DNA of 31,190 nt from a virus. Location of the stretch: positions 1 to 31,190 of IMG/VR virus record IMGVR_UViG_3300030102_006776. One strand, 5' to 3'. The position numbers and the translations under genes are program-made. Under the pieces are notes generated by a model that saw nothing but the letters and a program-made list of their open reading frames with translations, was not told the origin of the DNA and did no database searches. Below, piece after piece: positions 2,031 to 31,143 of this stretch (position 1 is its first letter; each line of letters begins with the position of its first letter).

Positions 2031-2046
2031 TATAGAGGAATAACGA

Positions 2047-2412
2047 ATGTCTTTTACAGCACAACTACCACTTAATAAAACCAACAACGGTACATATGCA
2101 AATATTGATGACCAAGTTGATTTTGTCAAACAAAACGTAAAGAATGTTTTATTAACGAACCCCGGCGAAAGAATTATGTTGCCAGAATTTGGAGTCGGTC
2201 TCAGACGCTTTCTTTTTGAAAACGCTCAGTCTGACAGTATAAAATCACTAGTAGAATCACAAATTCAAGATCAGTTTGATAACTATTTGCCAACGGTCGA
2301 GTTAATCGATGTTAAAATTGAAATTCAAGAAAATTCCATGCTCGTAAAAGTATTTTACAACTTAATTAACTTCAACATACAAGATTTTATACAATTGGCA
2401 GTCACAAACTAA
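2047..2412 (+). CDS. Baseplate wedge protein, gp25/gpW-like
   Basis: A 121-residue protein of the GPW/gp25 family, the small wedge protein that links the inner baseplate to the first sheath ring in contractile tails. The family signature is clear at residues 35-57: LLTNPGERIMLPEFG, then GLRRFLF. The Asn-Pro-Gly-Glu-Arg turn and the Pro-Glu-Phe-Gly motif are the most conserved parts of the family. Length matches T4 gp25 (about 130 residues). The start is supported by AGAGGA at 2034-2039, 7 bases before the ATG. It is followed directly by the gp6/gpJ-like gene, the standard order in P2 (W then J) and many contractile-tail phages. Family members are sometimes labelled lysozyme-like for historical reasons; no lysozyme activity should be inferred. 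Identification by motif reading only, but strong. Confidence 0.93.
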   Translation: MSFTAQLPLNKTNNGTYANIDDQVDFVKQNVKNVLLTNPGERIMLPEFGVGLRRFLFENAQSDSIKSLVESQIQDQFDNYLPTVELIDVKIEIQENSMLVKVFYNLINFNIQDFIQLAVTN

Positions 2413-2433
2413 TTATTCAAAGGAACAAGATAG

Positions 2434-4227: not shown

Positions 4228-5690
4228 TGAGCGTTAAAAAATATTATGCTACAAAAGATAATACAATTACTAACCGATACAAGTCGTATAGTAACACACG
4301 CCGCGTTAGTTCGCTTAATTTTGGCTTAACAGATAGACTCCAAATTTTTTCAATCTATGCGACCGTTACAGCCTCTGTAGATGACAATGAGAAGTCTAGA
4401 GTCTTATTACAATTTGATACGTCTGAGGTAAGCACAGACCGCGCTAACGGCGACATTCCTGACTCCGGTAGTGTGTCGTTTTTCTTGCGTCTGAAAAACT
4501 ATCCACAAACTTCAACTAGCCCGACTTCTTTTACACTTGTCGTGGCACCAATCAGTCAATCATGGGACGAAGGTCGAGGTGAAAGTTTTGATGAGGAAGA
4601 TTCTAACGAAATTGGCAGTAATTGGCTTACCGCATCATCATTTCCAGAAATAACGTGGACCAGCGCTGGGGGTGATTTTAGAACAACACCATTGGCTGAA
4701 GAGTCATTTAACGCAGCAGATCAAGATTTAGTTTTAGATATTACGCCTTATGTTGAAAGTGTTTTGACAGATGGTGTGGCAGATTACGGTGTTGGGGTTT
4801 ATTTAACCTCCTCACAAGAGGCTACCACTGAATCGTTTTACAAAAAAGCATTTTATTCTCGTCAATATGAGGACGAGGCTTACAGACCACAGTTAGAAGC
4901 CCGTTGGAACAATTCTTTGCAAGATGACACAGATAATTTCTTTTTAAGTGCATCAAGAGCCTCGTCGGCAGATAATTTAAACACAATTTACATTTATAAT
5001 CAGATCCGAGGTAACCTAAAAAACATACCCGACATTGGCACGGGTAGTATCCTTGTCAGTTTTTATTCAGGATCAGAAACAGCACCCGCTGGCTCAAAGT
5101 TAAACTTACCAGCCGGTGGAGGCGTTGTAGCCGAAGGTGATGTAAATGTCACAGGCTCCCATGTTTCTACAGGTATTTATTCTGCTTCACTGGCATTCAA
5201 TTCTAGTTCGTTGGATTTTGTTCATCCGGTGTGGCACTCTGGCTCAGTCGAATATCACACTGGTTCAGCGATAGAACCCGCAGCCCGTGGCTCCGTTGGC
5301 GCAAGAAGGATAAAAAGATACTTTTTGTCGCTAACAAATCTAAAAGAACAATACTTGCAAAATCAAACAAGTCGCATAAGGTTATATGTCAGAGATCCAT
5401 CGGCATCACCAACAATTTATACAACAGCCCAAGCAACACTTGAGGCAACAATAATTAATAAAGCCTATTATAAGATTGTTCGCCAAAGAGATAACTTTGA
5501 AATTGTTTCATATGGAACAGGCTCTGGTGATGGAGAGTACACGAGACTTTCCCATGACGCAAAGGGTAATTACTTTGACTTGGATTTTTCTGTTTTTCCA
5601 AAGAATGAAGATTATGTAATTAAATTTACATTTTTTGAAGATGGGCAATACCGCGAGCAGAAACAAAAATTTAAGTTTAGGGTAGTGTAA
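4227..5690 (+). CDS. Virion structural protein, jelly-roll-like, first of a tandem pair
   Basis: A 487-residue protein, clearly paralogous to the following gene along its whole length. Residues 1 to about 225 read like the carbohydrate-binding-module-like beta-sandwich found in many extracellular and phage proteins: a run of polar strands, SRVLLQFD, SQSWDEGRGESFDE, a TW-x-x-GGDF motif, then LDITPYVESVL and VGVYLTSSQE. The middle (about 275-350) has GSKLNLPAGGGV and GSHVSTGIYSASL. The C-terminal domain (about 375-487) has YGTGSGDGEYTRLSHDAKGN and ends FKFRVV. The ATG overlaps the stop of the gp6-like gene by one base and the nearest SD-like sequence (GGA at 4213-4215) is weak, suggesting translational coupling. 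Role inferred: an adhesive or decorative baseplate-periphery protein. The exact role is unknown. Confidence 0.85.
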   Translation: MSVKKYYATKDNTITNRYKSYSNTRRVSSLNFGLTDRLQIFSIYATVTASVDDNEKSRVLLQFDTSEVSTDRANGDIPDSGSVSFFLRLKNYPQTSTSPTSFTLVVAPISQSWDEGRGESFDEEDSNEIGSNWLTASSFPEITWTSAGGDFRTTPLAEESFNAADQDLVLDITPYVESVLTDGVADYGVGVYLTSSQEATTESFYKKAFYSRQYEDEAYRPQLEARWNNSLQDDTDNFFLSASRASSADNLNTIYIYNQIRGNLKNIPDIGTGSILVSFYSGSETAPAGSKLNLPAGGGVVAEGDVNVTGSHVSTGIYSASLAFNSSSLDFVHPVWHSGSVEYHTGSAIEPAARGSVGARRIKRYFLSLTNLKEQYLQNQTSRIRLYVRDPSASPTIYTTAQATLEATIINKAYYKIVRQRDNFEIVSYGTGSGDGEYTRLSHDAKGNYFDLDFSVFPKNEDYVIKFTFFEDGQYREQKQKFKFRVV

Positions 5691-7131
5691 TGGCAGTTAA
5701 AAAATACACAGCAACAAAAGATAACACAATCACCAATGCGTTTGGTGAAGTGTTTGATAATCGACTAACTGGCACTAACGCTGGTCTTGCAGATTCGCTA
5801 GAGGTTTTTTCAATTTATGGTCAAACTAGTGAGTCTGCGTCATTAAATGAAAATTCAAGAATTTTAATTCAGTTTCCAATTTCAACTATATCATCTGAAA
5901 TTACCGATGGAACAATAGAAAGTGGTTCAAATTTTGTTTTGAGACTGTTTTCAGCCGAGCAACCCGAGCCTCCACCTAAAGATTTTACTCTTGTCATCGC
6001 CGCAGTATCCGGCGCTTGGAACGAGGGCACAGGTCCAGATTTAGCGAACAAAGATTACACAGGTGCATCAAATTGGATTTCGGCTTCAACAGGAGTGGCT
6101 TGGACCTCTACAGGTGGCGACTTTTACGCATCACCCCGCTTTACAGCATCTTTTACAACTGGTGAAGAGGATATTTCCATTGATGTAACCTCGCTCGTTG
6201 GCGAATGGATCGAAGGGACAAAAGAAAATCATGGATTTGGAATCTTCCTAACATCCAGCCAAGAAGACGTTTCTGCGTCTTATTATACAAAAAGATTTTA
6301 TAGCAGAACAAGCGAATATGTCATAAAGCGCCCTGTAATCGAGTCTAGGTACGATGATGCGAAAAAAGATAATGCGTCAACATTTTTCTTGAGTTCTGCA
6401 TTGGCACCTGCCAGCGACAATTTAAATAACTTGTATCTTTACAACTACATTGATGGACAATTACAAAACTTACCAGATGTCGGGACTAACGACATTCTTT
6501 TAAGCGTTTATTCAGGTACCACAGCACCCGCTGGGTCAAAGTTGTTTTTACCAGTGGGAGGGGGCGTCGAAGCAACCGGAGACATCAATATTACTGGCTC
6601 TCATGTTTCAACTGGGATTTACTCTGCTTCATTTGCGTATGCCTCAAGTTCTATCACAAAGTTATTTGGAGTGTGGCATTCCGGCTCAACAGAGTACGCA
6701 ACAGGCTCCGCAGTTACAGTTGAGACGTTTGACTCTTTAGATAATAGAGACTTCAGCGATTTTACGATTCTGCCCGTGAATGTAAAAGATACTTACTCGG
6801 CAGACGAGAAAGCCAGAATAAAGATTTACGCACGTCCAAAAGATTGGTCGCCCACTATTTATCCTAGTGGATCACAAACGCCAAATTCGACAATTATCGA
6901 GGAACTTTACTACAAGGTAACAAGAACGATTGATGGATTAGAGTTTATTCCATACGGAACAGGCTCTGGCAACGGTGCTTTTACAAAAACTTCTTATGAC
7001 GCAGAGGGAAATTATTTTGAATTAGACTTTTCACAATTTGAAACGGGATTTAAATACCGTGCTAATTTTGTGATAAAGAAAGATTTAAACTTCATAGAAC
7101 AAGAAGATACTATAGAATTCAGGGTTGATTG
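4227..7131 (+). repeat. Ancient tandem gene duplication (two jelly-roll-like genes)
   Basis: The units 4227-5689 and 5690-7131 are head-to-tail paralogues. Similarity is still visible in DNA: 20 of 21 bases agree between 5081-5101 and 6523-6543, and the blocks near 5149-5210 and 6591-6652 also align well. Elsewhere only the protein similarity remains. Confidence 0.85.
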
Positions 7132-7132
7132 A
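5690..7132 (+). CDS. Virion structural protein, jelly-roll-like, second of a tandem pair
   Basis: A 480-residue paralogue of the preceding gene. Shared landmarks, in the same order: the opening VKKYxATKDNTITN, the SRILIQF strand, the TW-x-STGGDFYASPRF segment, GFGIFLTSSQE, YSGTTAPAGSKLFLPVGGGV, GSHVSTGIYSASF, VWHSGSTEYATGSA, and YGTGSGNGAFTKTSYDAEGN. Unlike its twin it has LFSAEQPEPPPKD near residue 90, a proline-rich loop, and a different third domain around 345-375. Its ATG overlaps the previous stop by one base (TAATG) and its own TGA shares its last base with the next ATG. The same start/stop arrangement at both ends of the pair suggests coupled translation in fixed ratio. Function is unproven; the jelly-roll fold and the position next to the baseplate core suggest a peripheral baseplate or fibre-attachment protein. 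Confidence 0.85.
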   Translation: MAVKKYTATKDNTITNAFGEVFDNRLTGTNAGLADSLEVFSIYGQTSESASLNENSRILIQFPISTISSEITDGTIESGSNFVLRLFSAEQPEPPPKDFTLVIAAVSGAWNEGTGPDLANKDYTGASNWISASTGVAWTSTGGDFYASPRFTASFTTGEEDISIDVTSLVGEWIEGTKENHGFGIFLTSSQEDVSASYYTKRFYSRTSEYVIKRPVIESRYDDAKKDNASTFFLSSALAPASDNLNNLYLYNYIDGQLQNLPDVGTNDILLSVYSGTTAPAGSKLFLPVGGGVEATGDINITGSHVSTGIYSASFAYASSSITKLFGVWHSGSTEYATGSAVTVETFDSLDNRDFSDFTILPVNVKDTYSADEKARIKIYARPKDWSPTIYPSGSQTPNSTIIEELYYKVTRTIDGLEFIPYGTGSGNGAFTKTSYDAEGNYFELDFSQFETGFKYRANFVIKKDLNFIEQEDTIEFRVD

Positions 7133-10100
7133 TGAGCTTCAAAAAATACATAGAGCAAGTAAAATCACAAAATAAAACCTCAAAGCCACTCATCAAGAAA
7201 ACAAGACAATCTGTGGGCAACACACTAGATCGTGGTGAAGCAACAAAAGTAAGACAAAAGAATAGAGATAAGTACATTCCACCAGTTGACTTTGGCACTG
7301 CTAGTAATTTTGCATTCTATGGTTCTGCTGAAGATTATTATACAAAGGCAGTAGACTATATCGCTGGTTTCTACCCGTATGATGGTACGACCACAGACAA
7401 AGAATTGTGGCTTTTTAGTGCATCACATCTAGAGACATATATATTTGAGAACGAATACCCAAGAACAAACGGATACATAGTTTTTTCATCTGATGGGTGG
7501 ACAACTCAAAGCGACGAAGAAGGTGGCTATGGTGAACCAGCCACTCAACAATACATTTTGTTTAATGGCGGTTTGGCTGTTGGTGACATCGTTAACGATA
7601 CTGATTTTACATTTGATTTAAAATATGGAACCTCTGACGGCAACTGCATTGAATTCTGGATAAACAAATCAGAGTTTTTGCCGACTTTGACAGAAAAAGA
7701 AGTAATTTTTGATTTGTGGAATAGTTCGTCGCTCGCTGAGTCCAAAGGACGTTTTACTGTAGAGTTGACGGGTTCAACGAATGTAATTAATGTCTCTATC
7801 GCATCCGGTACAGTTCACGCGGAAGCACAACTAACTGCAATTACGTCAGGGAATTTGGTTGATGGTGATTGGCACCATGTCGCCTTAAACTTCTCATATG
7901 GTGAAAGCGCAGTGTCTGTTGATTCATATTTAGACGGCGACTACAAGGGAACACAAACTATTGCAGGAGCAATTAGCGAAGTGACTGGCGCGTTTGTTGG
8001 TGCCCTTGGCGCACTTGTAACTGAACAAACTGCATCAACTAACGTCGGCGCTCTTGGGTTTGGTAAACTATCTGCATCTCTTGATGATTTTAGATTTTGG
8101 CGAAAAACCAGAGATTCAAAACAAATTTCAATATTTAGCCGTCAATCCCTTGATGGTGGTGCAGTAACAGGCTCATCCAACCGCCAGTTGGGTTTATACT
8201 TCAAGTTCAATGAGGGCATAACCACAAATGCAACAACTGACGCTACAATCTTAGATTACTCAGGTCGCTTAAATAATGGCACGTTTGTTGGTTATACATC
8301 AACAGCACGAGAAACCGGCTCTGCATTTGTAGAATCTGGTTTAGCCGTCCGTGAATTTAAAGACCCCATTTTATACAAGACTCACCCAGATGTATCAGCA
8401 TATCGCTCCGACAAAATCTTGTCTGGCTCAACGCACGACTTATTAAACAATAACAACATTTATAAAACACTCCCAGACTGGATTACCACAGAGGACGATG
8501 AAAATTCAAAAGAATTAAAATCTCTTACTCAGATTATGGCTTCTACTTTAGATGAACTATACCTTGAAATAAAAACTCTACCCGAGATTAATCGTGCTGA
8601 GTATTATGGCGATAATATTTTTAAGAACAAATTCGATCAGTCATCACTAAATTCAAAGGGTCTTTTGGTAGGCAGAATTTTAGAGAACACCGATTTCTTA
8701 AACTCTTTTTATGACTCTGGAGACACAGGATTATTTGTACAAAAGTTAGAAGATATAAAAAGCATAATTTATGGTAACCTAAACAATAACGCCACAGAGA
8801 TTTTTAAAACCAAGGGCACCGTTGAGAGTTTGAGAAACGCGCTCCGCTGCTTTGGTGTTGACAATGAATTAATTAACTTATCAATCTACGAAGATAATAC
8901 AACGATTAGGTTGGACGATAAGAGAGAATTATATGCTGAAAAATACAAATTTGTAAACTTTTCAACAGCGTCAAACAATGATGCAGTCGTTTTCCCAAGT
9001 TTGTCAGGCGGCATTGGAACATCGTATATCAGCGGAACATTTGGAGTAGCCGATCCAATTGAAGCCAGAATGGCTAACACTTACGAGTGCCAAGTATTCT
9101 TGCCAAAATATCCAGACTTTGGCGAAAAGTCAAATGTTAACTTTGTTGGAGTTTCTTCCTCTATATTTGGCGTGCATGGAATTACAGCCACAAGTTCAGC
9201 CGACGATGGCACAACTTTCTCTGGTGATGATGCAGGCTTTCAGGTATATGCAGTTAGAGACACACTAATAAACAGAAAGGTAAAATTTGTAGTCACATCG
9301 TCAGTGGACGCCGCAGGCGAAAATGTGTTCCCTGCAATTGAAACAGGCTTTTTCGACGACGCATACGACAACGAAACTTGGAACATTGCAGTAACAATTA
9401 AACCAATTGGTTACGAGGTCGGAGATCAAAACAATTCTCTTCAAGACGCATCTGGTTCTTACATAGTAAACTTTAGAGGTTACAATGTAGAAGATGAAAG
9501 ATTATATCATTCATTCGATTTGTCCTCGTCTTTTCATTCTACGAGAGCAATAAAATTATTAAGCCAAAACAGAAAGCCTTATTATGGAGCAAACAGAACA
9601 AACTTCACAGGATCAGTGTTAACAAACTCAGATGTTGAAATCGGATTTTTCAGAGTTTGGTTTGATAACCTGTCAAGTGATGAATTGATTAGTCACGCAA
9701 AAGATCCAAGAAACTTTGGTAGAGATAGACCATACGAAAATTTCTTACCACTATCAGAAAAATTTGCTGGAGCATATGTTCCAAAAGTACAGTCCTTGGT
9801 GATGAACATTGGAACTGACAATTTATCAGAATCTGATGGTTCAGGGATCTTTACACTAGATGACCTATCATCAGGCTCCTATAATAACACCGGCTTAACT
9901 GATTTAGATAATATTCTCGGTGGTCTTTACCAAGCGAAAGGATTTGGGTTTACCCCATCATCGGAGAACATTTATAATTCAAGGTTCTTCACGGTGGGTA
10001 AAACAATTAACCCAGAAAACTTTGGTGAACTATCTGGCGTTAGAATTCTAACCGAAGATGACGCTGCAACGAAAAGCATAACAAAAGCCAAACTCGCTTA

Positions 10101-13100
10101 CTTTACAATTGAAAAAAGCGCACAGCAAGCACTCAATAGAGACATCATCTCTTTCTTCTCCTCGCTCGATGGTTTTAACGAATTAATCGGTAATCCTGTA
10201 AACAAGTACAGAATGGAGTACAAAGATTTAAAGAAGTTAGCAACAGATTATTTTTCAACTGTTATTAGCAAAAGAACCAGTGCAGCATTCTTTGAATACT
10301 ACCAGTGGCTCGACAATGCAATCAACGATATGTTGTTACATCTATTACCAGCCACACTAAATGGTTCAGACAAGATTTACAACGTTGTTGAAAGTCACAT
10401 ATTAGAGAGAAACAAATATCAACACAAGTTACCAACGGTTGAGTTTAGAAGACCAGACCCAGAGGCAATTGCTTCAGGTTCCAATAATCAAGATTGGAGA
10501 CTTTCTCACCGACCATTATCCGACTCTCAAGCGGACAACTGCTTTTGGTGGAAATTCCGTGCTGATCGAGCAAACACTGCGTTTGGTCCAACAGGATCTG
10601 CTGGCACACTAAACAGTAGAAGGTTAATTCACACTGCCAGTTTCCAACAGATTGAGAGAGAACAAAACTCTCCAGTTAAACAAAAAGTTACTATCGGTCG
10701 GGAGTTCAAGGGTGGTATTAACTTTAACAAGAACAAAAAACTTGACTTTTACAAAGCCGTTGTTTTCAATACAAGTTCCGCTGGTTTTGGTAAAATGGTT
10801 GTTTCGGCAAGCACTGTTAATGTGGTCGCCTGTGATGATGATTTGGAACTGTTAGACAAGCGTGATTTAGGTGCTACAACAACAGTGGCATACGGCGACA
10901 ATTCAGAACAAAGTTTCCGCTTTGACCTTGCCGCTCCCGGTAACTTAATTTCTCAATCAATTTCTACTAATGGCAATTATCTTAGTAGTGCATACAATGT
11001 AGCGAACCCAAGCCACGTTGTTACAAACATACACCACGATGTGTTTGGTCCTGATCCTGAACAACCAATGCAGGGTCCATTTACCTCACAACGAGTTGGT
11101 GGATTTAAATCGAGAAAAAGAAGACTAACAGATGTTGGGACGAGACTAGAAAGATTTAGATTTGATACATCCAACACAACAGAAATTTTAATTGAATCGC
11201 CTCGCGCTGATTTAGGTTATGACGAACCAGTAGACCAGTTTTACCAAGACCCACCTGTGCGTGCGCCAGTAAATATTAAGAATATTCGCACCACTGGTTC
11301 TGCCATGGGTAACTTTAAAGAAAACTACGAAGTTGTCCAAACTTCAGGCAAGTCTATCAACAATTTTAGCAAAGCAGATCTTACAGGGGTCGTTGGCGCA
11401 CTACAAAGCCCATACGTCTCGGGTATCATGGACTTCCCAGTAATTACAGGCGCAGCCAATAAAACAGTATTTAGAGAAATATTTGGTGCCCCCGGTGGAC
11501 CAGACACATATGGTCCTTATCTTGATCCGGTCAACAGAGAATTCAGTGTTTACAACAGTTTGAATTACCGTAACAGGGCAATCCGAGATCCATTAAACAC
11601 GCGAATGGAAAAACCCAGTGCGTTTGGTGGAACAACATCTGGAAGTAACGATCTTTCGGCTTCAATCCACAAAGTTCAGAGAAACGGTACAAAAAGAATG
11701 TTGTTAACCGCAGGGACCACTGCTGTTACTTCAACCTTATTCGACAACGGTTTCTTTTCTAGAGCAATTCCAGCAAGAGACTTTGGGTATTCTTGGGTTC
11801 AAGCAGCCGCAAGAACTCTAACAGGCTCAGAAAATATAGTAATTTTGGCAGGCTTTGCCACTGGATCAGATTACAATGTGCCAACCTCAACCTTGAGAGA
11901 CTTTGAATCTTCTGTTGATTATCAAGTCAACTTTGCTGGCGTCACTGCCCCCGGTGAGTTTAGTATTTTCGGCGGTTATCACAGCGATTTGGATGGCAAC
12001 TATCTTGTAAAAGCCCCAAACAACTACACAACCGTCGCGAGCCTTGCGGACAATATTGATGTTTACTTTAACAATATTGTTACACACGGGTTTAGATACA
12101 ATTCATGGGCACAAATTAGAGGCGAGCGTCACTTGGCAACACGTCACTTACGCCGTAACAACATTATTACAGCCCAGCGAGATCCAGTTGCCGTTGGAAC
12201 CGCAGAAAATCCTTTTGATTTTGCAGAGGCAGGATTCTTTGATGCACGCGAACCAGTTGCGACTTATGATGCCCCTGTGCTATTGGTGGCAGACATAGAC
12301 CCAATAGATCTAACAGGCAATGAAACCTTGTTTGCAATTTCAGATAATTCCGAAAAAAGATTTTTCTTTGACAATGATTTGCAAAGTATCTTGACCAGCA
12401 AGGCACAAAAAGATATGAAATCTTCTTACGACAAGTTTTACGATTTCTATGTATCGCCTGCTCAAGACGCAATAAGCGAAGACAACATTAATTTTGTTAA
12501 ATTTTCTCATCAAATTTATCCATTACAGAAGTTCTCTTTTACTAAAAACAGGCTAATAAGAGATCAGTTTACACAAACTTGGGCAGAAACAATTGAAGAA
12601 AGAACTTTATTAAAATCATTTGATAGTACCCCAACATTGCCACAGTATAAAGATTCCTCTACTGTCACTGGATTTACAAATACGCTTGGTCTGCCGCTAA
12701 TTTATCAGGGACCATTCCCAACTCAAGCGGCAATGTCTGGTAATTCTGTAATAGGTAGCAGTCACCCGCTTGATACTAGTATTAGTGGGACAAACTCTCC
12801 TCCTCGTTTTGGAGCAAAGACAGGTACCGGAGACGAGTTTGCCATTTCTAATTATCGAGATTTTATTCCTTACGGAATCACGGGTACTTTTGTAACCGCC
12901 TCGGCAGTAAATCAACACGGTACAACCTTGGCGGGTAACGGTAACGAATTTTACAATCTACGCCGAACCAATGATCCAGTGGACGCCGCCAAGTTCCTTA
13001 CGACTGACCCAGCCGACTCTCAATTAATTAATTATGATACTGTGGCTGCATCAAATATGACTTTTGGTATACTTAGAGATCCAAAAAACTTTTTAACCAC

Positions 13101-15744
13101 GTTTATCAGCCATGTGCCCACAGGTGCCTTTAATCCAGATGGCACGATTATTCCTGACGCCACTGCCGCTATTGGTCCCGAGGGCTTTAGGCTAGCTGGA
13201 ATGCCAAGCCGCAGTTTTGGACCTTTACTTGAAATGCCTTGGATCACCACAGATTATTTTGCTTACGGTGACGAAGCTTTTCGTTTTCCACAATTTAACA
13301 CTTCGTTCTTTAGTCAGTGGTTCGCCCCCGAACAATACGGCAAGGGTCCAAGTTATTACAATGACCATAAAGAATTTTCTGAGTTTGTAAAAATTGTTGG
13401 TAAGGATCACTCTTTAATACCAGAGTACAGGATTTCTGAACACATTGGAGAACTAACAACTGGCTCCTCTAAGTTATCATCAGATTTGGTTTCCGCTAGA
13501 GAAATCACAGGCTCCTCTAACGCAACCCAGAATCTACCATCATACGAAGACGGGGATCTCTTGGTTAACTTCGCTCAATTTAAAAGCAAGCATAGCTCCT
13601 TTATGAAGCCAAGTAAATTAAGATTAAAGTTTGACGCTATTACAAAACTTCTACCATACGAGGGTTTTTATCCAGCCGAGCGCACAGTACAACTAGTAAA
13701 TATTTTTAGTAGTTCTGTCGCAAACGCAGTGCAGTTTAAACAGAACACCGGGACCATATTCGGAGCCACTATTGGTCCAAACATCAACGGCAGTGAGCAA
13801 TCTCTTAGAACCACATTACAACCATTGTTCGCTCCCGGTATTTTATACAACTCAATCAAAGCAGGTATTGGAATTAATTACGGGATGTTTACTGGTTCAG
13901 ACGCAGGGAATCTCAGAGGTCCAGCCCTCGCCTCGACCCAAGTCAATCCCGGTATCGAAGGCGACTATAACGATCCCGATTTTAGTTTCTTTACCATGGC
14001 TTATAGTGGAACAGTCTCTGGCGGCTTTGGTAGTGGAATGTTCCTTCCCGGTATCGACAACATGCGTAATTTAGATGGATTTTTTAAATTACAATTTGAA
14101 GAATTAGTGACCCTCAACACTTTAACTACTGATTTTTGGTTTGATATGTATCCAGACGTTAGCATGTCTTTGACTAGACAGCCCTTCGCAGGTTCTCCTC
14201 CAAGAATAAATGAAGAAACGGCTGTAAGAATCAACAAAAATATAAAACCATTGTACCAAATGGCAATGTCTAATTTCTTGGCTAGTACGATTGATTTCTG
14301 CTTAAATAAGAATTCTTTAACAACCATTAGATCAAAACAACAAAAGGAATTAAGCACTGTAGAGGCTGGTGATACTTATAAAATGAGATTGTCTTTGAGT
14401 ATTGATTTTAATAAGAATCTAACAACTCAACCTCAAACAATGTGGGCATTAAACTCTAAAGACCGCAGAGCGGGCTGGGGTCCGCCCGTTTCTGGTGCGC
14501 TTGTTAATCAAGATGACGGCACCGATGGCGGCGGCAACGGCTATTCACTCGGAGTTATGCCAACTGATAGAATTTGGCGTCCCGGTTGGGGCGAGGGTGA
14601 TGTCTTTGTTGATTTGGAGTGGAACCCAAAAGAAAATAAACAGTATACAATTGAACAGATCCAAAATGAAATTACAGCAACCTTTTCACAAAGCATTGAA
14701 ATTCAGGATTACAGAGAGCCCTCTATCGATAAAGCGTCTGCCTCTCCAATGTACATGGACTTTGTTACTTCTTCAATGCCAAACTTTGGAGACTCTGTTA
14801 ACTTCTTGTCACGTTTGAATAAGGCGCAAACTGAGATTGACCCCACAACAGGTCTGCCAATAAAAACCATTGACCCGCTTGATACATCAAATACTGTTTG
14901 GGTCATTCAACCAAAATGGGAAACCCCATTTTTAACGAGAGACAGCACCAGCATTTACACTGGCATTTGGAAATCGCTCTGCAAGATACCAGATGATGAA
15001 AATGGTGCCACATTTAAAATATCAGTCAAAGAAACTGCTCGTGGCACAGAGAAAAGCCTTAAAGACTTCTTTAGGTTCCAAGACGAGGCAGAGTTGGGCA
15101 AGTTGTCAGAAACAACCGAGATTGAGGAAGCCATCGTATGCATACCTTACAAGGTAATTGGACAGACTAAAAAGTTCTTCCAAATTGAAAGACAGAATCT
15201 AGATGCTTTGTTGATTGAGGGAGCCAAGGCTGTAGCCAACGGACAAACTCCGAATGAATGGTATCAACTCCATCAATCTTTGGACAAGTATGTATTCCCG
15301 CCTGCTTTTGATTTCAAAAGAAACAAAGAGATTATGCCACTTGGAATGATTGTTAAAGAATACTCAGTTGCGTTGGATAAAGAAGACATTTCTTTGTTCT
15401 GGCAAAATCTACCTCCAAAGCCCCTCGCCGATTTTGATATTGATACATCTTACATTGAGATTGATTTAGAAAAGACGCAATTGTTCCCAAATATGATGGA
15501 CACAAAAAACCCAGTAATTAAATGGGTGATTTTTAAGGTCAAGAAAAGATCAAAGGCGAACTACTTTGCCATGACCGCTGAAGATCCAACTTTTGCTCAA
15601 CAATCATTTGAAACACTGGATATTGATGGTAGCAAGTTCTCAATTGATGATTACAGTTTTAACTACCCATATGATTTCTGTTCATTAGTGGAAACAGCAA
15701 AGATTACAGCAGAGGTTGATTTTGTCAAGAAAACAGATGACTAA
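7132..15744 (+). CDS. Giant baseplate protein with gpI/gp7-like segment and two LamG-like domains
   Basis: A 2870-residue protein. I choose ATG 7132 over the in-frame TTG at 7129 because 7132 overlaps the previous stop by one base, as at neighbouring junctions. Domains seen: a basic N-terminal tail (1-40); an FYGSAEDYYTKAVDYIAGFYPYDG-type entry domain with NEYPRTNGY (about 60-120); a concanavalin/LamG-like domain (about 155-395) with GDWHHVALNFSYG, DDFRFWRKTRDSKQI and LYFKFNEG...DYSGRLNNGTF; a segment at about 430-590 with LTQIMASTLDELYLEIKTLP and EIFKTKGTVESLRNALRCFG, resembling tail protein I (P2 gpI), whose T4 counterpart is gp7; and a second LamG-like domain (about 640-865) ending in GFFRVWFDNLSSDELISHAK. 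The remaining 2000 residues are unrecognised apart from a distinct C-terminal domain (about 2690-2870). Position after the gp25- and gp6-like genes supports the gpI/gp7 reading. The function of the added mass is unknown; glycan binding is an inference. Confidence 0.88.
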   Translation: MSFKKYIEQVKSQNKTSKPLIKKTRQSVGNTLDRGEATKVRQKNRDKYIPPVDFGTASNFAFYGSAEDYYTKAVDYIAGFYPYDGTTTDKELWLFSASHLETYIFENEYPRTNGYIVFSSDGWTTQSDEEGGYGEPATQQYILFNGGLAVGDIVNDTDFTFDLKYGTSDGNCIEFWINKSEFLPTLTEKEVIFDLWNSSSLAESKGRFTVELTGSTNVINVSIASGTVHAEAQLTAITSGNLVDGDWHHVALNFSYGESAVSVDSYLDGDYKGTQTIAGAISEVTGAFVGALGALVTEQTASTNVGALGFGKLSASLDDFRFWRKTRDSKQISIFSRQSLDGGAVTGSSNRQLGLYFKFNEGITTNATTDATILDYSGRLNNGTFVGYTSTARETGSAFVESGLAVREFKDPILYKTHPDVSAYRSDKILSGSTHDLLNNNNIYKTLPDWITTEDDENSKELKSLTQIMASTLDELYLEIKTLPEINRAEYYGDNIFKNKFDQSSLNSKGLLVGRILENTDFLNSFYDSGDTGLFVQKLEDIKSIIYGNLNNNATEIFKTKGTVESLRNALRCFGVDNELINLSIYEDNTTIRLDDKRELYAEKYKFVNFSTASNNDAVVFPSLSGGIGTSYISGTFGVADPIEARMANTYECQVFLPKYPDFGEKSNVNFVGVSSSIFGVHGITATSSADDGTTFSGDDAGFQVYAVRDTLINRKVKFVVTSSVDAAGENVFPAIETGFFDDAYDNETWNIAVTIKPIGYEVGDQNNSLQDASGSYIVNFRGYNVEDERLYHSFDLSSSFHSTRAIKLLSQNRKPYYGANRTNFTGSVLTNSDVEIGFFRVWFDNLSSDELISHAKDPRNFGRDRPYENFLPLSEKFAGAYVPKVQSLVMNIGTDNLSESDGSGIFTLDDLSSGSYNNTGLTDLDNILGGLYQAKGFGFTPSSENIYNSRFFTVGKTINPENFGELSGVRILTEDDAATKSITKAKLAYFTIEKSAQQALNRDIISFFSSLDGFNELIGNPVNKYRMEYKDLKKLATDYFSTVISKRTSAAFFEYYQWLDNAINDMLLHLLPATLNGSDKIYNVVESHILERNKYQHKLPTVEFRRPDPEAIASGSNNQDWRLSHRPLSDSQADNCFWWKFRADRANTAFGPTGSAGTLNSRRLIHTASFQQIEREQNSPVKQKVTIGREFKGGINFNKNKKLDFYKAVVFNTSSAGFGKMVVSASTVNVVACDDDLELLDKRDLGATTTVAYGDNSEQSFRFDLAAPGNLISQSISTNGNYLSSAYNVANPSHVVTNIHHDVFGPDPEQPMQGPFTSQRVGGFKSRKRRLTDVGTRLERFRFDTSNTTEILIESPRADLGYDEPVDQFYQDPPVRAPVNIKNIRTTGSAMGNFKENYEVVQTSGKSINNFSKADLTGVVGALQSPYVSGIMDFPVITGAANKTVFREIFGAPGGPDTYGPYLDPVNREFSVYNSLNYRNRAIRDPLNTRMEKPSAFGGTTSGSNDLSASIHKVQRNGTKRMLLTAGTTAVTSTLFDNGFFSRAIPARDFGYSWVQAAARTLTGSENIVILAGFATGSDYNVPTSTLRDFESSVDYQVNFAGVTAPGEFSIFGGYHSDLDGNYLVKAPNNYTTVASLADNIDVYFNNIVTHGFRYNSWAQIRGERHLATRHLRRNNIITAQRDPVAVGTAENPFDFAEAGFFDAREPVATYDAPVLLVADIDPIDLTGNETLFAISDNSEKRFFFDNDLQSILTSKAQKDMKSSYDKFYDFYVSPAQDAISEDNINFVKFSHQIYPLQKFSFTKNRLIRDQFTQTWAETIEERTLLKSFDSTPTLPQYKDSSTVTGFTNTLGLPLIYQGPFPTQAAMSGNSVIGSSHPLDTSISGTNSPPRFGAKTGTGDEFAISNYRDFIPYGITGTFVTASAVNQHGTTLAGNGNEFYNLRRTNDPVDAAKFLTTDPADSQLINYDTVAASNMTFGILRDPKNFLTTFISHVPTGAFNPDGTIIPDATAAIGPEGFRLAGMPSRSFGPLLEMPWITTDYFAYGDEAFRFPQFNTSFFSQWFAPEQYGKGPSYYNDHKEFSEFVKIVGKDHSLIPEYRISEHIGELTTGSSKLSSDLVSAREITGSSNATQNLPSYEDGDLLVNFAQFKSKHSSFMKPSKLRLKFDAITKLLPYEGFYPAERTVQLVNIFSSSVANAVQFKQNTGTIFGATIGPNINGSEQSLRTTLQPLFAPGILYNSIKAGIGINYGMFTGSDAGNLRGPALASTQVNPGIEGDYNDPDFSFFTMAYSGTVSGGFGSGMFLPGIDNMRNLDGFFKLQFEELVTLNTLTTDFWFDMYPDVSMSLTRQPFAGSPPRINEETAVRINKNIKPLYQMAMSNFLASTIDFCLNKNSLTTIRSKQQKELSTVEAGDTYKMRLSLSIDFNKNLTTQPQTMWALNSKDRRAGWGPPVSGALVNQDDGTDGGGNGYSLGVMPTDRIWRPGWGEGDVFVDLEWNPKENKQYTIEQIQNEITATFSQSIEIQDYREPSIDKASASPMYMDFVTSSMPNFGDSVNFLSRLNKAQTEIDPTTGLPIKTIDPLDTSNTVWVIQPKWETPFLTRDSTSIYTGIWKSLCKIPDDENGATFKISVKETARGTEKSLKDFFRFQDEAELGKLSETTEIEEAIVCIPYKVIGQTKKFFQIERQNLDALLIEGAKAVANGQTPNEWYQLHQSLDKYVFPPAFDFKRNKEIMPLGMIVKEYSVALDKEDISLFWQNLPPKPLADFDIDTSYIEIDLEKTQLFPNMMDTKNPVIKWVIFKVKKRSKANYFAMTAEDPTFAQQSFETLDIDGSKFSIDDYSFNYPYDFCSLVETAKITAEVDFVKKTDD

Positions 15745-25443: not shown

Positions 25444-26528
25444 TGAAACTAAAGAAGTTTTCCAAAGATGAGGTTATCTATAACACCATCGAAGCAAACC
25501 CGCAAGTAACTTTTACATTTGCGGGTGGAAATACATACTTTAATAATATTTCAAGTTCCAATTCCAACGTTCCAAACGGATGCATTTCAGCATTTGATAT
25601 AAGCGTAAACAGAGTTGGCGATGATAGAATATTCCAGTTTTTAAACAAGGACAATGACCGCGCCGCTTTCAAAACTATTTCAAAATCAACATACAACTCG
25701 GCGCTACCGGGGGCTGAGTTTAAAACGTTTTTGGCTCTTACCTCCTCTGTGCAGGTTGAACTAGGAACAGATCTTGCTCACACAAAAGCATTAAGAAACA
25801 TTATTAATCATTATCGAAGACTGTCGAAGTTTTTTGATTTTTCAACGTATTTCGATAACAAAGAAATAAAACTTATATCGATTCCGAGTATTTTTTATGG
25901 TTCATCTATGAAAAAAGGTGGAATTGAACTTGATTTTTATTATACTGGCTCACTGTTGGCAAAGGCAATAGATAGGGATAACAACGGGGAATTAATTCAA
26001 GTTAGCGGTTCGGCTACTGCTTCAAACGGCGCTGTCGTTGGTGTTGCTCTTTACAACGAGGGTTTTATTGCTTTATTCTCAACGGCTAGTTTGGGAGTAA
26101 GTGACGGGTATGCCAGTAGTAACGCCACCGCTCAGTGGGTTGATTTTGCAGATACGGCTGCTGGAGTGTTAAGCAGTTCTTTTGAAATGAGATTTAAGGG
26201 AACCACTTTTACACCCACACTTACAATGTTTGCCCATGCCCCAGAGGGGAAATACAATTTTAGCAACAACCCAACCTTTTTAGATGGCGGTAATTCTAAT
26301 AACACAACAACAGGCACTTTTTCATTTTTTGAGGCTTCGTCTTCAATAAAAAATATTGCCACGTCAACCTTGGGTAATTTTTCTGCTCCCTTCAAGAAAA
26401 CAACATTTATCTCAAAAGTTGCAATATATGATGACAACCAAAGATTACTCGGCGTTGCTCATCTAGCCGAACCAATAAAAAAGACAGAAGACGACGCATA
26501 TACTTTTAAAATAAAACTTGACATATAG
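25443..26528 (+). CDS. Virion structural protein, second of a second paralogous pair
   Basis: A 361-residue paralogue of the preceding protein, with the same C-terminal block: YNFSNNPTF, a longer Asn/Thr-rich insert (SNNTTTGTFSFFEASSS), then KVAIYDDNQRLLGVAHLAEP IKKT and an end in IKLDI. The N-terminal half differs more (FTFAGGNTYFNNISSSNSNV) and includes DLAHTKALRNIINHYRRLSK, matching the helical region of the twin. Its ATG overlaps the previous stop by one base with only a weak purine run upstream, so translation is probably coupled to the first copy. It is the last gene of the structural block; 13 bases later the DNA-metabolism genes begin. Function unknown; a virion role is inferred from context and paralogy. 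Confidence 0.87.
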   Translation: MKLKKFSKDEVIYNTIEANPQVTFTFAGGNTYFNNISSSNSNVPNGCISAFDISVNRVGDDRIFQFLNKDNDRAAFKTISKSTYNSALPGAEFKTFLALTSSVQVELGTDLAHTKALRNIINHYRRLSKFFDFSTYFDNKEIKLISIPSIFYGSSMKKGGIELDFYYTGSLLAKAIDRDNNGELIQVSGSATASNGAVVGVALYNEGFIALFSTASLGVSDGYASSNATAQWVDFADTAAGVLSSSFEMRFKGTTFTPTLTMFAHAPEGKYNFSNNPTFLDGGNSNNTTTGTFSFFEASSSIKNIATSTLGNFSAPFKKTTFISKVAIYDDNQRLLGVAHLAEPIKKTEDDAYTFKIKLDI

Positions 26529-26534
26529 TATAAT
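26529..26534 (+). promoter_or_regulatory. Possible -10-like element at the module boundary
   Basis: TATAAT lies directly after the stop of the last structural gene and 7 bases before the ATG of the RuvC-like gene. It is a perfect match to a bacterial -10 hexamer, but the only TTGACA nearby (26518-26523) is 5 bases away, far too close to act with it, and no good -35 sits at the normal distance. It could serve a phage-modified polymerase or be chance in AT-rich DNA. Confidence 0.2.
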
Positions 26535-26541
26535 AACAAGT

Positions 26542-27087
26542 ATGATATTAGCATTAGACGTTTCCACATCTATCACAGGTGTATCAATAATCAATCAACA
26601 AGGCAAAGTGCAATACTGCGAATCAATTGATTTGAGAAAGCATAAAAATTTCTTTACCAAGTGTGATGTTATAAAAAACTCACTTATAAACATAGTAAAC
26701 ACAAAAGAAGGGCACACAATCTCTGAGATCTACATTGAACAACCGTTTATGTTTTTTAACTCTGGTGGTTCATCTGCGAAAACAATGGCTGCACTACAGA
26801 GGTTCAACGGAGTTGTTAGTTGGATCTGTTTTTCGTTCTTCGGGCTGGAACCAAAATACCTCACGGCAGGACAAGCCAGAAAAGAGATTGGCATAAAAGT
26901 TCCCCGAGGTCAAAAAGCAAAGCCGGTCGTTTTACAATTTGTTCTTGACAACGACCCCCATTTCAGTGTAGAATATACCAAATACGGAAACCCCAAACCA
27001 GACTCTTATGATAGAGCAGACAGTTGGGTCATAGCAAAGGCAGGTTGGTCAGTATGGAAAAAGTCACAATCCTACGCAGAGTCTTAG
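26542..27087 (+). CDS. RuvC-like Holliday junction resolvase
   Basis: A 181-residue RNase H-fold nuclease of the RuvC type, expected to cut four-way or branched DNA during recombination, replication and packaging. I take ATG 26542 because the family begins directly with the first strand; the upstream TTG at 26518 lies inside the previous gene. Catalytic acids are in place: D6 in ILALDVSTSITG, E66 in EIYIEQP, and D157 and D160 in SYDRADSWVIAKAG. The GQARKEIGIKVPRGQKAK segment (110-127) matches the region linking strand 5 to the last helix. The length is close to E. coli RuvC (173). T4 uses an unrelated resolvase, endonuclease VII, so this phage has a different solution. The 3' end overlaps the primase start by 34 bases. 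It could act on branched DNA more generally. Confidence 0.9.
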   Translation: MILALDVSTSITGVSIINQQGKVQYCESIDLRKHKNFFTKCDVIKNSLINIVNTKEGHTISEIYIEQPFMFFNSGGSSAKTMAALQRFNGVVSWICFSFFGLEPKYLTAGQARKEIGIKVPRGQKAKPVVLQFVLDNDPHFSVEYTKYGNPKPDSYDRADSWVIAKAGWSVWKKSQSYAES

Positions 27088-27983
27088 GAGATTTTCGACC
27101 CACAGGTGGCGAGAGGCTATTTCATTGTCCTGAATGTAAACACCACAAAAACAAACTTTCTGTCAACATCGAGCGAGACAAGTTTCAATGTTGGCACTGC
27201 GGCTATGCAGGTAGAAAGATTTATCGCCTTATTCGCAGGTTTGGTTCTTTTACAGACCAACAAGCATGGCGAGAGATTTCAAATGACATTGACTTATCTC
27301 TTTTTGATGAGTTGTTCAACGAGGAAAAATACGAAGAAGTAGAACAAGTAATCGACTTACCAGAGCATTTTATCTTTTTAGGGCGCTCAGACTTGCCGAT
27401 GTCATCATTGCCTCCAAGACATTACCTTGCAAAGCGAGGTGTCACAATGGATGAAATACTATTCTGGAAGATTGGCTATTGTCCGTGGGGCGAATACAAA
27501 GACCGAATTGTTGTGCCATCTTTCAATAAAAACGGTGACCCAAACTTTTTCGTAAGCAGGACTTACAAATCATCTTGGGCAAAGTATAAAAACCCAAATG
27601 TAAGCAAGGATATTATTTTCAACGAACTTTACTTGGATTTTGATCAAGAGGTTGTGTTAGTAGAAGGAGTTTTTGACGCAATCGTAGCAGGCGAGAATGC
27701 AGTGCCTATTCTTGGTTCAACCCTCAAAGAACAAAGCAAACTATTTCAAAAGATTGTCCAGAGCGATACAGCAGTTTATTTTGCACTTGATCCAGATGCC
27801 GACACAAAAGCATACAAGATTATGCAGAAACTGTTACAATACGATGTTGACGTTTACAAGGTGGACCTTACTGGCTTCGCTGACGTTGGGGAAATGACCA
27901 TGGGTCAGTTCCAAGAAAGAAAAGGACAGGCAACTTGGGTAAACCCTGATAGCCTATTGGCTATGCAAGTCGCTTGTATTTAG
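27054..27983 (+). CDS. DnaG-like DNA primase, short form
   Basis: A 309-residue primase that would make RNA primers at the phage replication fork. I choose ATG 27054 over the in-frame TTG at 27024 because the protein then starts just before the zinc domain. An N-terminal zinc ribbon has cysteines 25, 28, 46 and 49 (CPEC and CWHC); many DnaG proteins have Cys-His plus Cys-Cys here. Next comes the RNA polymerase core: KRGV, IGYCPW, RIVVPSFNKNGDPNFFVSRT, KYKNP (about 128-181). The TOPRIM fold follows with LVEGVFDAI (E204), ALDPDAD (D246, D248) and FADVGE. The protein stops soon after TOPRIM, so it lacks the helicase-binding domain of bacterial DnaG and the fused helicase of T7 gp4; a separate helicase is expected elsewhere. 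It overlaps the resolvase gene by 34 bases. Confidence 0.9.
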   Translation: MEKVTILRRVLGDFRPTGGERLFHCPECKHHKNKLSVNIERDKFQCWHCGYAGRKIYRLIRRFGSFTDQQAWREISNDIDLSLFDELFNEEKYEEVEQVIDLPEHFIFLGRSDLPMSSLPPRHYLAKRGVTMDEILFWKIGYCPWGEYKDRIVVPSFNKNGDPNFFVSRTYKSSWAKYKNPNVSKDIIFNELYLDFDQEVVLVEGVFDAIVAGENAVPILGSTLKEQSKLFQKIVQSDTAVYFALDPDADTKAYKIMQKLLQYDVDVYKVDLTGFADVGEMTMGQFQERKGQATWVNPDSLLAMQVACI

Positions 27984-27990
27984 GAGAAAA

Positions 27991-30900
27991 ATGAATTTGA
28001 ATTATAAAATCGCACACATCTCTGATACACATATCAGAAACCTGAAATATCACAAAGAGTATCGTGCCGTATTCAAAAAGATCTATGAATCTCTGCGAGA
28101 GCAAAAGCCTGACGCTATTGTTCACTGTGGAGACTTGGCTCACACCAAGGTCCACTTGTCACCAGAGTATTTTGATCTTGCTTCAGATTTTTTGAAGAAT
28201 CTAGCGGACATAGCGCCCCTTATTATTATTCCCGGTAACCACGATGGTAATTTACGAAACACGGCGCGACAGGACGCTATAACCCCCTTAGTGACCGCGT
28301 TAGATCACAAGCACATACACCTTCTTAGAGATTCCGGCGAATACGTTTGGGATTCTAACATTGTTTTCAATGTTTTGTCTGTTTTCGACCCTGAGAATTG
28401 GGTCAAGCCGACAAGAGAAGATAAAATTAACATTGCACTTTATCATGGTTCCATTTCAGGTTGCGAGACATCGCTTGGCTGGGTTATGGAACACGGTGAG
28501 AATGACGTGTCTATTTTTGAAGGACACGATTATGCAATGTTGGGAGACATCCATAAAACAAATCAAATCCTTGACGACCACGGTCGAGTGCGTTATGTTG
28601 GCTCGACCATTCAACAAGGTCATGCCGAGGAACTAGATAAGGGTTATCTTCTTTGGACAATCAATTCCAAGGATGATTGGGACGTTGAACTTTTTACGTT
28701 TAGAAACCCAAAACCTTTTATTACAATCGAGTTGACACAAAAAGGACGCATCCCTAGAAACACCAAAATCCCCTTTGGTGCTAGAGTTCGTGTTGTCGCC
28801 AATACTAAACTACCAGTGGAAACAATTAGGAAAGCCACAGACGTGGTTAGAACCCGATTTAAGCCCGAAAGTCTTACTTTCCTTAACAGGGCTGGGGTAA
28901 GTTTATCTTCGGCGCATACAGACGATATTACGGAGCAAAATCTTAGAGACGTTCAAGTCCAACAAGAACTCATTCGTGATTACCTGAAAGACTACGAGCC
29001 AAGCGAAGAACTGTTAAAAGAAGTGTTTTCTATGAACGAACGTTTTAACAAGCAAGCGGAAGAAAATGAAGAAGTTGCCCGTAATGTGAACTGGTCGCTT
29101 AAGCACCTTGAGTGGGACAACCTATTCAATTATGGCGACAACAACAAACTAGACTTTGAGAATAATCGTGGTCTGGTAGGTATATTTGGTAAGAACTACT
29201 CGGGAAAGTCTTCTGTAGTAGACTCATTGCTTTATACGCTTTACAACTCGACATCTAAGAATGTCCGCAAGAATGTAAACATTATTAACGACCACAAACA
29301 AGATGGTCGAGGCAAAGTAAAGATCCAAGTTGGAACAAAACTTTACACAGTTGAGCGTTCCAGCGAGAAGTATGAAAGAAAACTTCGTGGACAGGTCACC
29401 ACAGAGGCTCGCACCGATGTGAAGTTTACTGTTAAGGATCTTGCCACAGGCGAAGAAGAGATTTTGGATGCAACAGATCGTAACAAGACTGATGCCAAGA
29501 TCCGTCATACCTTTGGTACAATGGAGGACTTTCTAACAACCTCCATGTCTTCGCAGTTAGGCGCACTTGACTTTATCAGCGAAGGCTCAACCAAGCGAAA
29601 AGAAATTCTTGCTAAGTTTTTGGACTTGGAGTTCTTTGACAAAAAGTTCCGCTTGGCTAAGAAAGAAAGTTCTGACACAAAGGGTTATCTAAAAAAATTA
29701 GAAACCTTTAATCTTGACGCTGATGAAGAAGCCATCGGCAATGAGCAAGATGAGGTGTTGTTCCTTATTGAACAAAAAGAAACAGCCTGCGAGGGTTATG
29801 AGAAAGAACTAAAAAAATTAAAAACAGTTCTGAAAGAAACTGAGGAAAAGATTGATTCCATCCCAGAAGAGATTATTGACGCAAAAGCCGTAAAAAGTTC
29901 TATCGCAACCAATGAGATCGTGATTGAAAACATTGATAGGAAAATTAATGGCTATAAACAAAAAATTGAAGATTCCCGTAATTTTTTGGAAAAAGCGGAA
30001 GAGGTTTTGCTACAGTTTAATGAACAAGAACTGTTAGAACAAGCCACAGAGGACGAAAAACTAAAAAAACAACTAGATGAACTGTTATCTGAAGCCGCCA
30101 ACTTAGAAAAGGACTTGGATAGATATAATAAACGGGTTGGTATCTTGGAGGAGATACCTTGCGGCGACAAGTACAAGACCTCTTGCAAGTTCATTACAAA
30201 TGCATTTGAAGCACAAGAATTAATTCCAGCAACAAATCTTTCTTTGGCTGTCGCAGAAGAAAAATCTATCGCCGTAGGAAAAAAGGTTGAGGAGTCCACA
30301 GCGCAGTATACCTTGGAGAAGATCACAAATACCAAGACTAAAATCTTGGAAACACAGCATACTATTACTTCTCTTCAGTTGCAAGTGAGCCAAGAACAGC
30401 AAAAAAGAACCTCATTGACGAAGAAGATAGAAGTCCTTCAGGAAAAGTTGGATTACTACGAAAAAAATAAGGAGGCGATCATTAATGGCGCTTTGCTTCG
30501 TACTCACAAAAAAGAAATAATTTGTGATATTAACACCGCTAAGTCAGAATGTAATAAATGCCGTGAACAATTGTTACAATTACACAAACAGGAAGGCTCT
30601 TTACAAGCACAGTTGGCTGAGAACCACAATAAACGGGCAGAACTAGAGAAAACCCGTCGTGAGTTCTCCGCATACGACCTTTTTATGAAGTGTATGCACC
30701 CGAATGGGATTGCATTTGGCATTATTAAAAATAAATTGCCACTAATCAACGAGGCAATCACTCAAGTATTGGCGAACGTGGTTGATTTTGAGATTTATTT
30801 TGAGGATAATGGCAGGAAACTGGATATCTTTATCCAACACAAGGAACAAGAAGCCCGTCCATTAGAGTTAGGCTCCGGTGCGGAGAAAACGCTCGCTGCA

Positions 30901-31143
30901 ATGGCTATTCGTATTGCATTATTAAATGTTAGTAATATGCCAAAATCAGATCTTTTTATTCTTGATGAGCCGGGAACAGCCCTTGATGCAAACAATATGG
31001 AAGGATTTACCAGAATCCTCGACATCTTGAGAGAGCATTTCAAGACTACGCTACTAATTACTCATATCGAAGGACTGAAAGATTCAGTTCAAAAAGTCAT
31101 TACCGTTGTACAACAAGATGGCTTTGCACATATCAACCAGTGA
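27991..31143 (+). CDS. Mre11-Rad50 (SbcD-SbcC, gp47-gp46) fused in one polypeptide
   Basis: A 1050-residue single chain joining nuclease and ATPase, which in T4 are separate genes 47 and 46. AGGAG at 27982-27986 overlaps the primase stop and sets the ATG. Residues 1 to about 360 are the Mre11/SbcD phosphoesterase: ISDTHI (D12, H14), CGDLAH (D48, H51), GNHD (N83, H84), YHGS (H152), EGHDYAMLGDIH (H179, H188). Residues about 367-1050 are Rad50/SbcC: Walker A GKNYSGKSS (K406), long coiled coil (about 560-905), a hook-like turn with C724 and C732, signature LELGSGAEK (958-966) and Walker B LFILDEP (D992, E993). Expected role: end resection and double-strand-break repair that feeds recombination-dependent replication. 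The reading frame is unbroken across the join. A further CNKC (854-857) is in the descending coil. Confidence 0.95.
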   Translation: MNLNYKIAHISDTHIRNLKYHKEYRAVFKKIYESLREQKPDAIVHCGDLAHTKVHLSPEYFDLASDFLKNLADIAPLIIIPGNHDGNLRNTARQDAITPLVTALDHKHIHLLRDSGEYVWDSNIVFNVLSVFDPENWVKPTREDKINIALYHGSISGCETSLGWVMEHGENDVSIFEGHDYAMLGDIHKTNQILDDHGRVRYVGSTIQQGHAEELDKGYLLWTINSKDDWDVELFTFRNPKPFITIELTQKGRIPRNTKIPFGARVRVVANTKLPVETIRKATDVVRTRFKPESLTFLNRAGVSLSSAHTDDITEQNLRDVQVQQELIRDYLKDYEPSEELLKEVFSMNERFNKQAEENEEVARNVNWSLKHLEWDNLFNYGDNNKLDFENNRGLVGIFGKNYSGKSSVVDSLLYTLYNSTSKNVRKNVNIINDHKQDGRGKVKIQVGTKLYTVERSSEKYERKLRGQVTTEARTDVKFTVKDLATGEEEILDATDRNKTDAKIRHTFGTMEDFLTTSMSSQLGALDFISEGSTKRKEILAKFLDLEFFDKKFRLAKKESSDTKGYLKKLETFNLDADEEAIGNEQDEVLFLIEQKETACEGYEKELKKLKTVLKETEEKIDSIPEEIIDAKAVKSSIATNEIVIENIDRKINGYKQKIEDSRNFLEKAEEVLLQFNEQELLEQATEDEKLKKQLDELLSEAANLEKDLDRYNKRVGILEEIPCGDKYKTSCKFITNAFEAQELIPATNLSLAVAEEKSIAVGKKVEESTAQYTLEKITNTKTKILETQHTITSLQLQVSQEQQKRTSLTKKIEVLQEKLDYYEKNKEAIINGALLRTHKKEIICDINTAKSECNKCREQLLQLHKQEGSLQAQLAENHNKRAELEKTRREFSAYDLFMKCMHPNGIAFGIIKNKLPLINEAITQVLANVVDFEIYFEDNGRKLDIFIQHKEQEARPLELGSGAEKTLAAMAIRIALLNVSNMPKSDLFILDEPGTALDANNMEGFTRILDILREHFKTTLLITHIEGLKDSVQKVITVVQQDGFAHINQ

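Follow-up and report, generated by a model that had tools for sequence, protein, structure and literature searches.

Fusions of Mre11 and Rad50 were described by Yoshida, Claverie and Ogata in 2011, starting from the Mimivirus protein R555 (PMC3175470). In R555, a protein of 1351 residues, and in the other fusions of that study, Mre11 comes first and Rad50 second, with a helix-loop-helix (HLH) and a short linker between them. Close fusion homologues were reported to be abundant in aquatic viral metagenomes, where short reads placed them beside phage primase genes (PMC3175470). Phage T4 and E. coli, in contrast, divide the same domains between two proteins, gp47 and gp46 (339 and 560 residues) in T4 and SbcD and SbcC (400 and 1048 residues, in D-then-C gene order) in E. 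coli.

Here we analyzed a window of 31,190 nucleotides from record IMGVR_UViG_3300030102_006776, a metagenomic IMG/VR virus contig of 36,620 bases. A frame of 1050 codons, free of N, runs open from an ATG at 27991, with an AGGAG motif immediately 5' of it, to a stop ending at 31143. Pfam places Metallophos at residues 6–164, SMC_N at 370–1042 and AAA_23 at 376–621, and PHROG 77 (SbcC-like) matches residues 319–1047 (E 2e-42); a calcineurin-like phosphoesterase thus forms the N-terminal third of the protein, and the remainder is an ATPase of the Rad50/SbcC type into which a coiled coil is inserted. The open frame, its translation and Pfam agree with the original prediction of Mre11 and Rad50 joined in one unbroken 1050-residue chain. 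The predicted T4 order of gene 47 then gene 46 is kept as well, although in T4 itself 46.2 and 46.1 lie between the two. The gene is laid out as follows.

27991–31143, + strand: fused Mre11/SbcD-Rad50/SbcC gene (open frame and translation, Pfam, PHROG; full length in 79/80 relatives)
27991–28890, + strand: phosphoesterase and capping domain, residues ~1–300 (Pfam PF00149, conservation, Foldseek matches 3thn and 4lty)
28546–28548, + strand: codon of Asp186, which replaces the canonical His (P. furiosus His206)
28894–28932, + strand: probable flexible link from the capping domain to the HLH, residues 302–314 (pLDDT <50, poorly conserved)
28951–29064, + strand: HLH, residues 321–358 (predicted helices 321–335 and 339–358, pLDDT mostly 82–93)
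29065–29088, + strand: junction, residues 359–366 (fixed 51-residue spacing, invariant columns, low pN/pS)
29089–29670, + strand: N-terminal ATPase lobe of Rad50, residues ~367–560, with Walker A at 400–408 and the Q-loop at 522 (Pfam AAA_23, conservation)
29671–30660, + strand: coiled coil, residues ~561–890, with hook cysteines C724 and C732 (predicted long helices 547–721 and 733–902; cysteines conserved)
30661–31140, + strand: C-terminal ATPase lobe of Rad50, with the signature at 960–966, Walker B at 988–993, the D-loop and H1025 (conservation)

We consider it probable (roughly 0.85) that this protein is a single-chain Mre11-Rad50 (SbcDC) end-processing nuclease of a T4-superfamily myovirus, which would replace gp47 and gp46 and provide resection and tethering for recombination-dependent replication. 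Alignment with its relatives supports a genuine single-chain enzyme whose ATPase appears intact and whose phosphoesterase site appears nearly so.

Walker A (GKNYSGKSS, residues 400–408), Q522, the signature (LGSGAEK, 960–966) and the Walker B DE (992–993), together with the D-loop and the H-switch H1025, are all present and nearly invariant among relatives, which bears out the prediction of intact Walker A, signature and Walker B and completes the set of Rad50/SbcC ATPase motifs. The hook of the coiled coil (window positions 30160–30186, residues 724–732) is a CX7C motif and departs from the canonical CXXC. Both cysteines are kept in every family row, and the spacing among 80 marine-family rows (the best 80 of 394) is CX6C in 64, CX7C in 11, the window included, and CX2C in 5. 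From this alignment the marine-family hook is best described as a variant of the CXXC zinc hook; the T4 hook, by comparison, is CPTC, and the coiled coil of E. coli SbcCD is much longer.

In the phosphoesterase half, the prediction that all visible active-site residues are in place stands for seven of them (D12, H14, D48, N83, H84, H152 and H188, each invariant in 82 family rows) and does not for the eighth, as Asp186, within a GDIH motif, takes the place of P. furiosus Mre11 His206 in 82/82 rows. The split proteins differ at this position: motif V has GH in T4 (GHFH), P-SSM4, S-SKS1 and E. coli (GHIH), and His is found in E. coli SbcD and in all split phage pairs of our sample (n = 7 split proteins). 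For phage Grass, a motif scan also returned a second GD.H string; its aligned motif V is GHYH. The same His206-to-Asp change is reported for R555 by the 2011 study (PMC3175470). The distant fusions of Mel-JY01, phiLo, IME392, Ab1 and phiXF1 also have the Asp.

Asp186 could change or weaken the nuclease activity, and this raises the question of whether the ATPase and tethering half alone is active, with a degenerate phosphoesterase that is mainly structural. The loss of the His206 equivalent in all 82 rows is what speaks for such a reading. Known Mre11 structures show this His as a ligand of the second metal, a role that Asp can also fill. Because Asp is a good metal ligand in its own right, does not drift among the 82 rows, recurs in the five distant fusions named above, and sits among otherwise invariant metal ligands in a domain under purifying selection, we regard a degenerate nuclease as improbable and think that the phosphoesterase is probably active despite Asp186.

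The possibility that Asp replaces His in fused proteins exclusively was also considered, and is weakened by the fused proteins of Carin-5 and LMTA-57, which have His; in our sample, the Asp accompanies fusion in nine lineages or clades, Carin-5 and LMTA-57 being the exceptions.

The join was examined using an AlphaFold model of the monomer (53 sequences, mean pLDDT 79.5, pTM 0.48). In Foldseek searches, it matches Rad50 of the Chaetomium MRN complex (7zr1, E 1.6e-19), the SbcCD heads (7yzp and 7yzo) and T. maritima Mre11 (3tho and 3thn), in keeping with the folds that both halves share with E. coli SbcCD, and its best matches in a viral fold library are full-length giant-virus proteins, such as those of Tupanvirus and Harvfovirus. 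The model presents a capping domain, an HLH region and a short linker before Rad50, as in the described fusions. By their position and by comparison with the 2011 study (PMC3175470), the two predicted helices at residues 321–358 are likely the Rad50-binding HLH of Mre11. They are followed by eight residues, after which the first predicted Rad50 strand begins at residue 367. In T. maritima, the end of Mre11 and the start of Rad50 lie ~28 Å apart, a distance for which nine to twelve residues are needed (PMC3175470), and in the model the eight intervening junction residues, or nine steps, would bridge about 28 Å. It had been proposed that fusion limits how the Mre11 dimer can move relative to the ATPase heads. 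The predicted monomer argues against this: because the join sits after an HLH that already binds Rad50 in canonical complexes, and because the link from capping domain to HLH (residues 302–314) is predicted to be flexible, fusion need not restrict the dimer. We infer that the fusion connects parts that would stay together in any case, while leaving in place the link through which the nuclease core can move.

The join is also strongly conserved. Among viral contigs, a scan identified 394 stretches encoding a relative of the fused protein, of which the best 80 were read. Both halves lie in a single frame of about 1050 codons in 79 of these 80, and the remaining one begins at the end of its contig and is hence cut. 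In 80/80 rows of the marine family (best 80 of 394), L318 through W368 make up exactly 51 residues, and the junction contains the invariant columns E360, R364 and N365. In a codon comparison with seven relatives, pN is 0.03–0.33 against a pS of 0.67–0.97 over residues 321–366; because most comparisons are saturated at synonymous sites, we give no pN/pS ratio, but the direction is clear, and the codons indicate that this stretch is under strong purifying selection.

One gene could nevertheless yield two products, if an internal start near residues 321–372, or cleavage, also gave free Rad50. Split genes do exist in T4-type phages, and an internal start with a Shine-Dalgarno (SD)-like sequence occurs in 9/80 rows. 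The best internal start position, however, is found in 3/80 rows, Met is not conserved at these residues, and no internal start with an SD is shared among the 80 marine-family rows (best 80 of 394); the main start has an SD-like motif in 39/81, and the join itself is the most conserved part. We therefore judge a second product improbable. That the gene is fused at the DNA level alone, through assembly error or frameshift correction of a metagenomic contig, with the phage making two proteins, is almost certainly wrong and already refuted, because 79 independent contigs and the cultured Microcystis phage Mel-JY01 carry the same single frame, codon-level purifying selection spans the join, and the frame is free of N. 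The stop codon or frameshift near residues 350–370 that had been named beforehand as decisive against a fusion is excluded, with 80 relatives sharing the frame there.

Two annotated genes lie just upstream of the fused gene.

27024–27983, + strand: DNA primase gene, the immediate 5' neighbor of the fused gene (PHROG 47, E 1.1e-36)
26518–27087, + strand: RuvC-like Holliday junction resolvase gene (PHROG 827 and 159)

The true start of the primase is probably later than the listed TTG. A primase lies upstream of the fused gene in 64/68 loci with room for it, an arrangement shared with the metagenome homologues of 2011 (PMC3175470). Genes for gp25-like and gp6-like baseplate wedge proteins are also present in the window, whose tail region includes a single 2871-aa frame at 7129–15744 (TTG as first start). 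Twelve large relatives on contigs of 98–204 kb provide a broader view. The fused gene is the sole Metallophos match in 12/12, where absence of a gene from a contig falls short of proof. A gp23-type (T4-type) capsid protein is found in 11/12 and a RecA/UvsX relative in 10/12, counts that describe these 12 relatives and not the window's own 36.6-kb record. The carriers are T4-superfamily myoviruses of a marine family in which gp47 and gp46 are merged into one protein; they share with T4 the gene order, the domain content, the capsid type and RecA/UvsX.

The proposed search for fused architectures in phages yielded several cultured phages in addition to the 394 viral-contig stretches. The Mel-JY01-type fusion comprises Microcystis phage Mel-JY01 and 20 related viral contigs. 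Its AAA protein (WWT39521.1) resembles the window protein in being fused, in its length of 1066 aa, in its GDIH motif and in a primase-like gene two genes upstream, but is ~30% identical and belongs to a separate freshwater clade. Further fusions are found in a 735-kb uncultured phage, Xanthomonas phage phiXF1, Thermus phage phiLo, E. coli phage IME392, Acinetobacter phage Ab1-TPeters, Cobetia phage Carin-5 and Listeria phage LMTA-57; the viral-contig scan found no relatives of phiXF1 or Ab1-TPeters. Mapping the fused and split states on a 30-row tree takes three changes, and well-supported branches force at least two of these. Across the aquatic T4-type group the fusion is fixed, and the distribution shows more than one gain or loss of it. 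The deep part of the tree is uncertain owing to long branches, and at its root these sequences do not distinguish fusion from splitting. LMTA-57 falls among split herelleviruses: its SbcD and SbcC form one frame (2995–6024 of its stretch), while Staphylococcus phage ESa1 and Bacillus phage Grass have two genes, and its single frame is either a recent fusion or a sequencing frameshift.

Several relatives have unusual gene structures. In the 484-kb uncultured phage LR756508.1, ~1 kb (~3540–4580) interrupts the fused gene right after the GDIHK motif and holds a cysteine-rich, endonuclease-like open frame; the interruption has the appearance of an intron or of an inserted mobile element, and Rfam returned no match for it. 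Rhizobium phage RHph_TM39 has two adjacent genes (171–4017; 443 and 815 aa) that share phosphoesterase and Rad50 N-terminal sequence, as if the fused gene had been partially duplicated; as annotated, the first metal-binding motif is absent from both.

Among bacterial genomes, the four strong matches come from contig-level phage sequence or from a stretch of a WOR-3 MAG that resembles phage, and the other 43 cover just 50–150 phosphoesterase residues, mostly archaeal. The WOR-3 MAG 'chromosome' CP070664.1 carries a primase gene, a RuvC gene and residues 1–629 of the fused protein, with the rest missing, and this stretch is a prophage remnant or a misassembly. No plasmid relatives were found by tblastn with the fused-protein query at E 1e-5; the plasmid fusions listed by Yoshida, Claverie and Ogata in 2011 (PMC3175470) are probably too distant for such a search.

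From the fused frame, its conserved residues and its gene context, we infer how the single-chain nuclease may assemble and act in replication. Two chains would dimerize through their Rad50 heads, in an ATP-dependent manner, and through the Mre11 core, giving the canonical 2:2 domain set. As the heads close and open, driven by ATP, the nuclease would reach DNA ends, and the hook of the coiled coil would keep such ends tethered. Onto the 3' single strand left by resection, the phage RecA/UvsX relative would then be loaded to serve recombination-dependent replication. Because the join follows the HLH that grips the Rad50 coil, 1:1 expression and pairing would be fixed while the nuclease dimer stays unlocked.

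The fusion is not novel: its kind was described in 2011 (PMC3175470) and proves widespread in viral contigs here; the window protein belongs to that fusion group and is not a new principle. The present analysis adds to this the setting on long contigs, the constant spacing at the join, the invariant Asp and the variant hook. A tentative and rather doubtful suggestion is that the invariant Asp, the fixed-length structured join and the CX6-7C hook jointly alter the use of metal or the strand specificity and so define a distinct biochemical subfamily; if true, single-chain enzymes would work differently from split Mre11-Rad50. Abundant aquatic T4-type phages offer a compact natural single-chain Mre11-Rad50 of fixed stoichiometry, useful for structural work on the ATP control of the nuclease, and the homologues from aquatic metagenomes, for which the 2011 study could only infer an owner, are now tied to long phage contigs, on which the T4-superfamily phage genome itself is seen.
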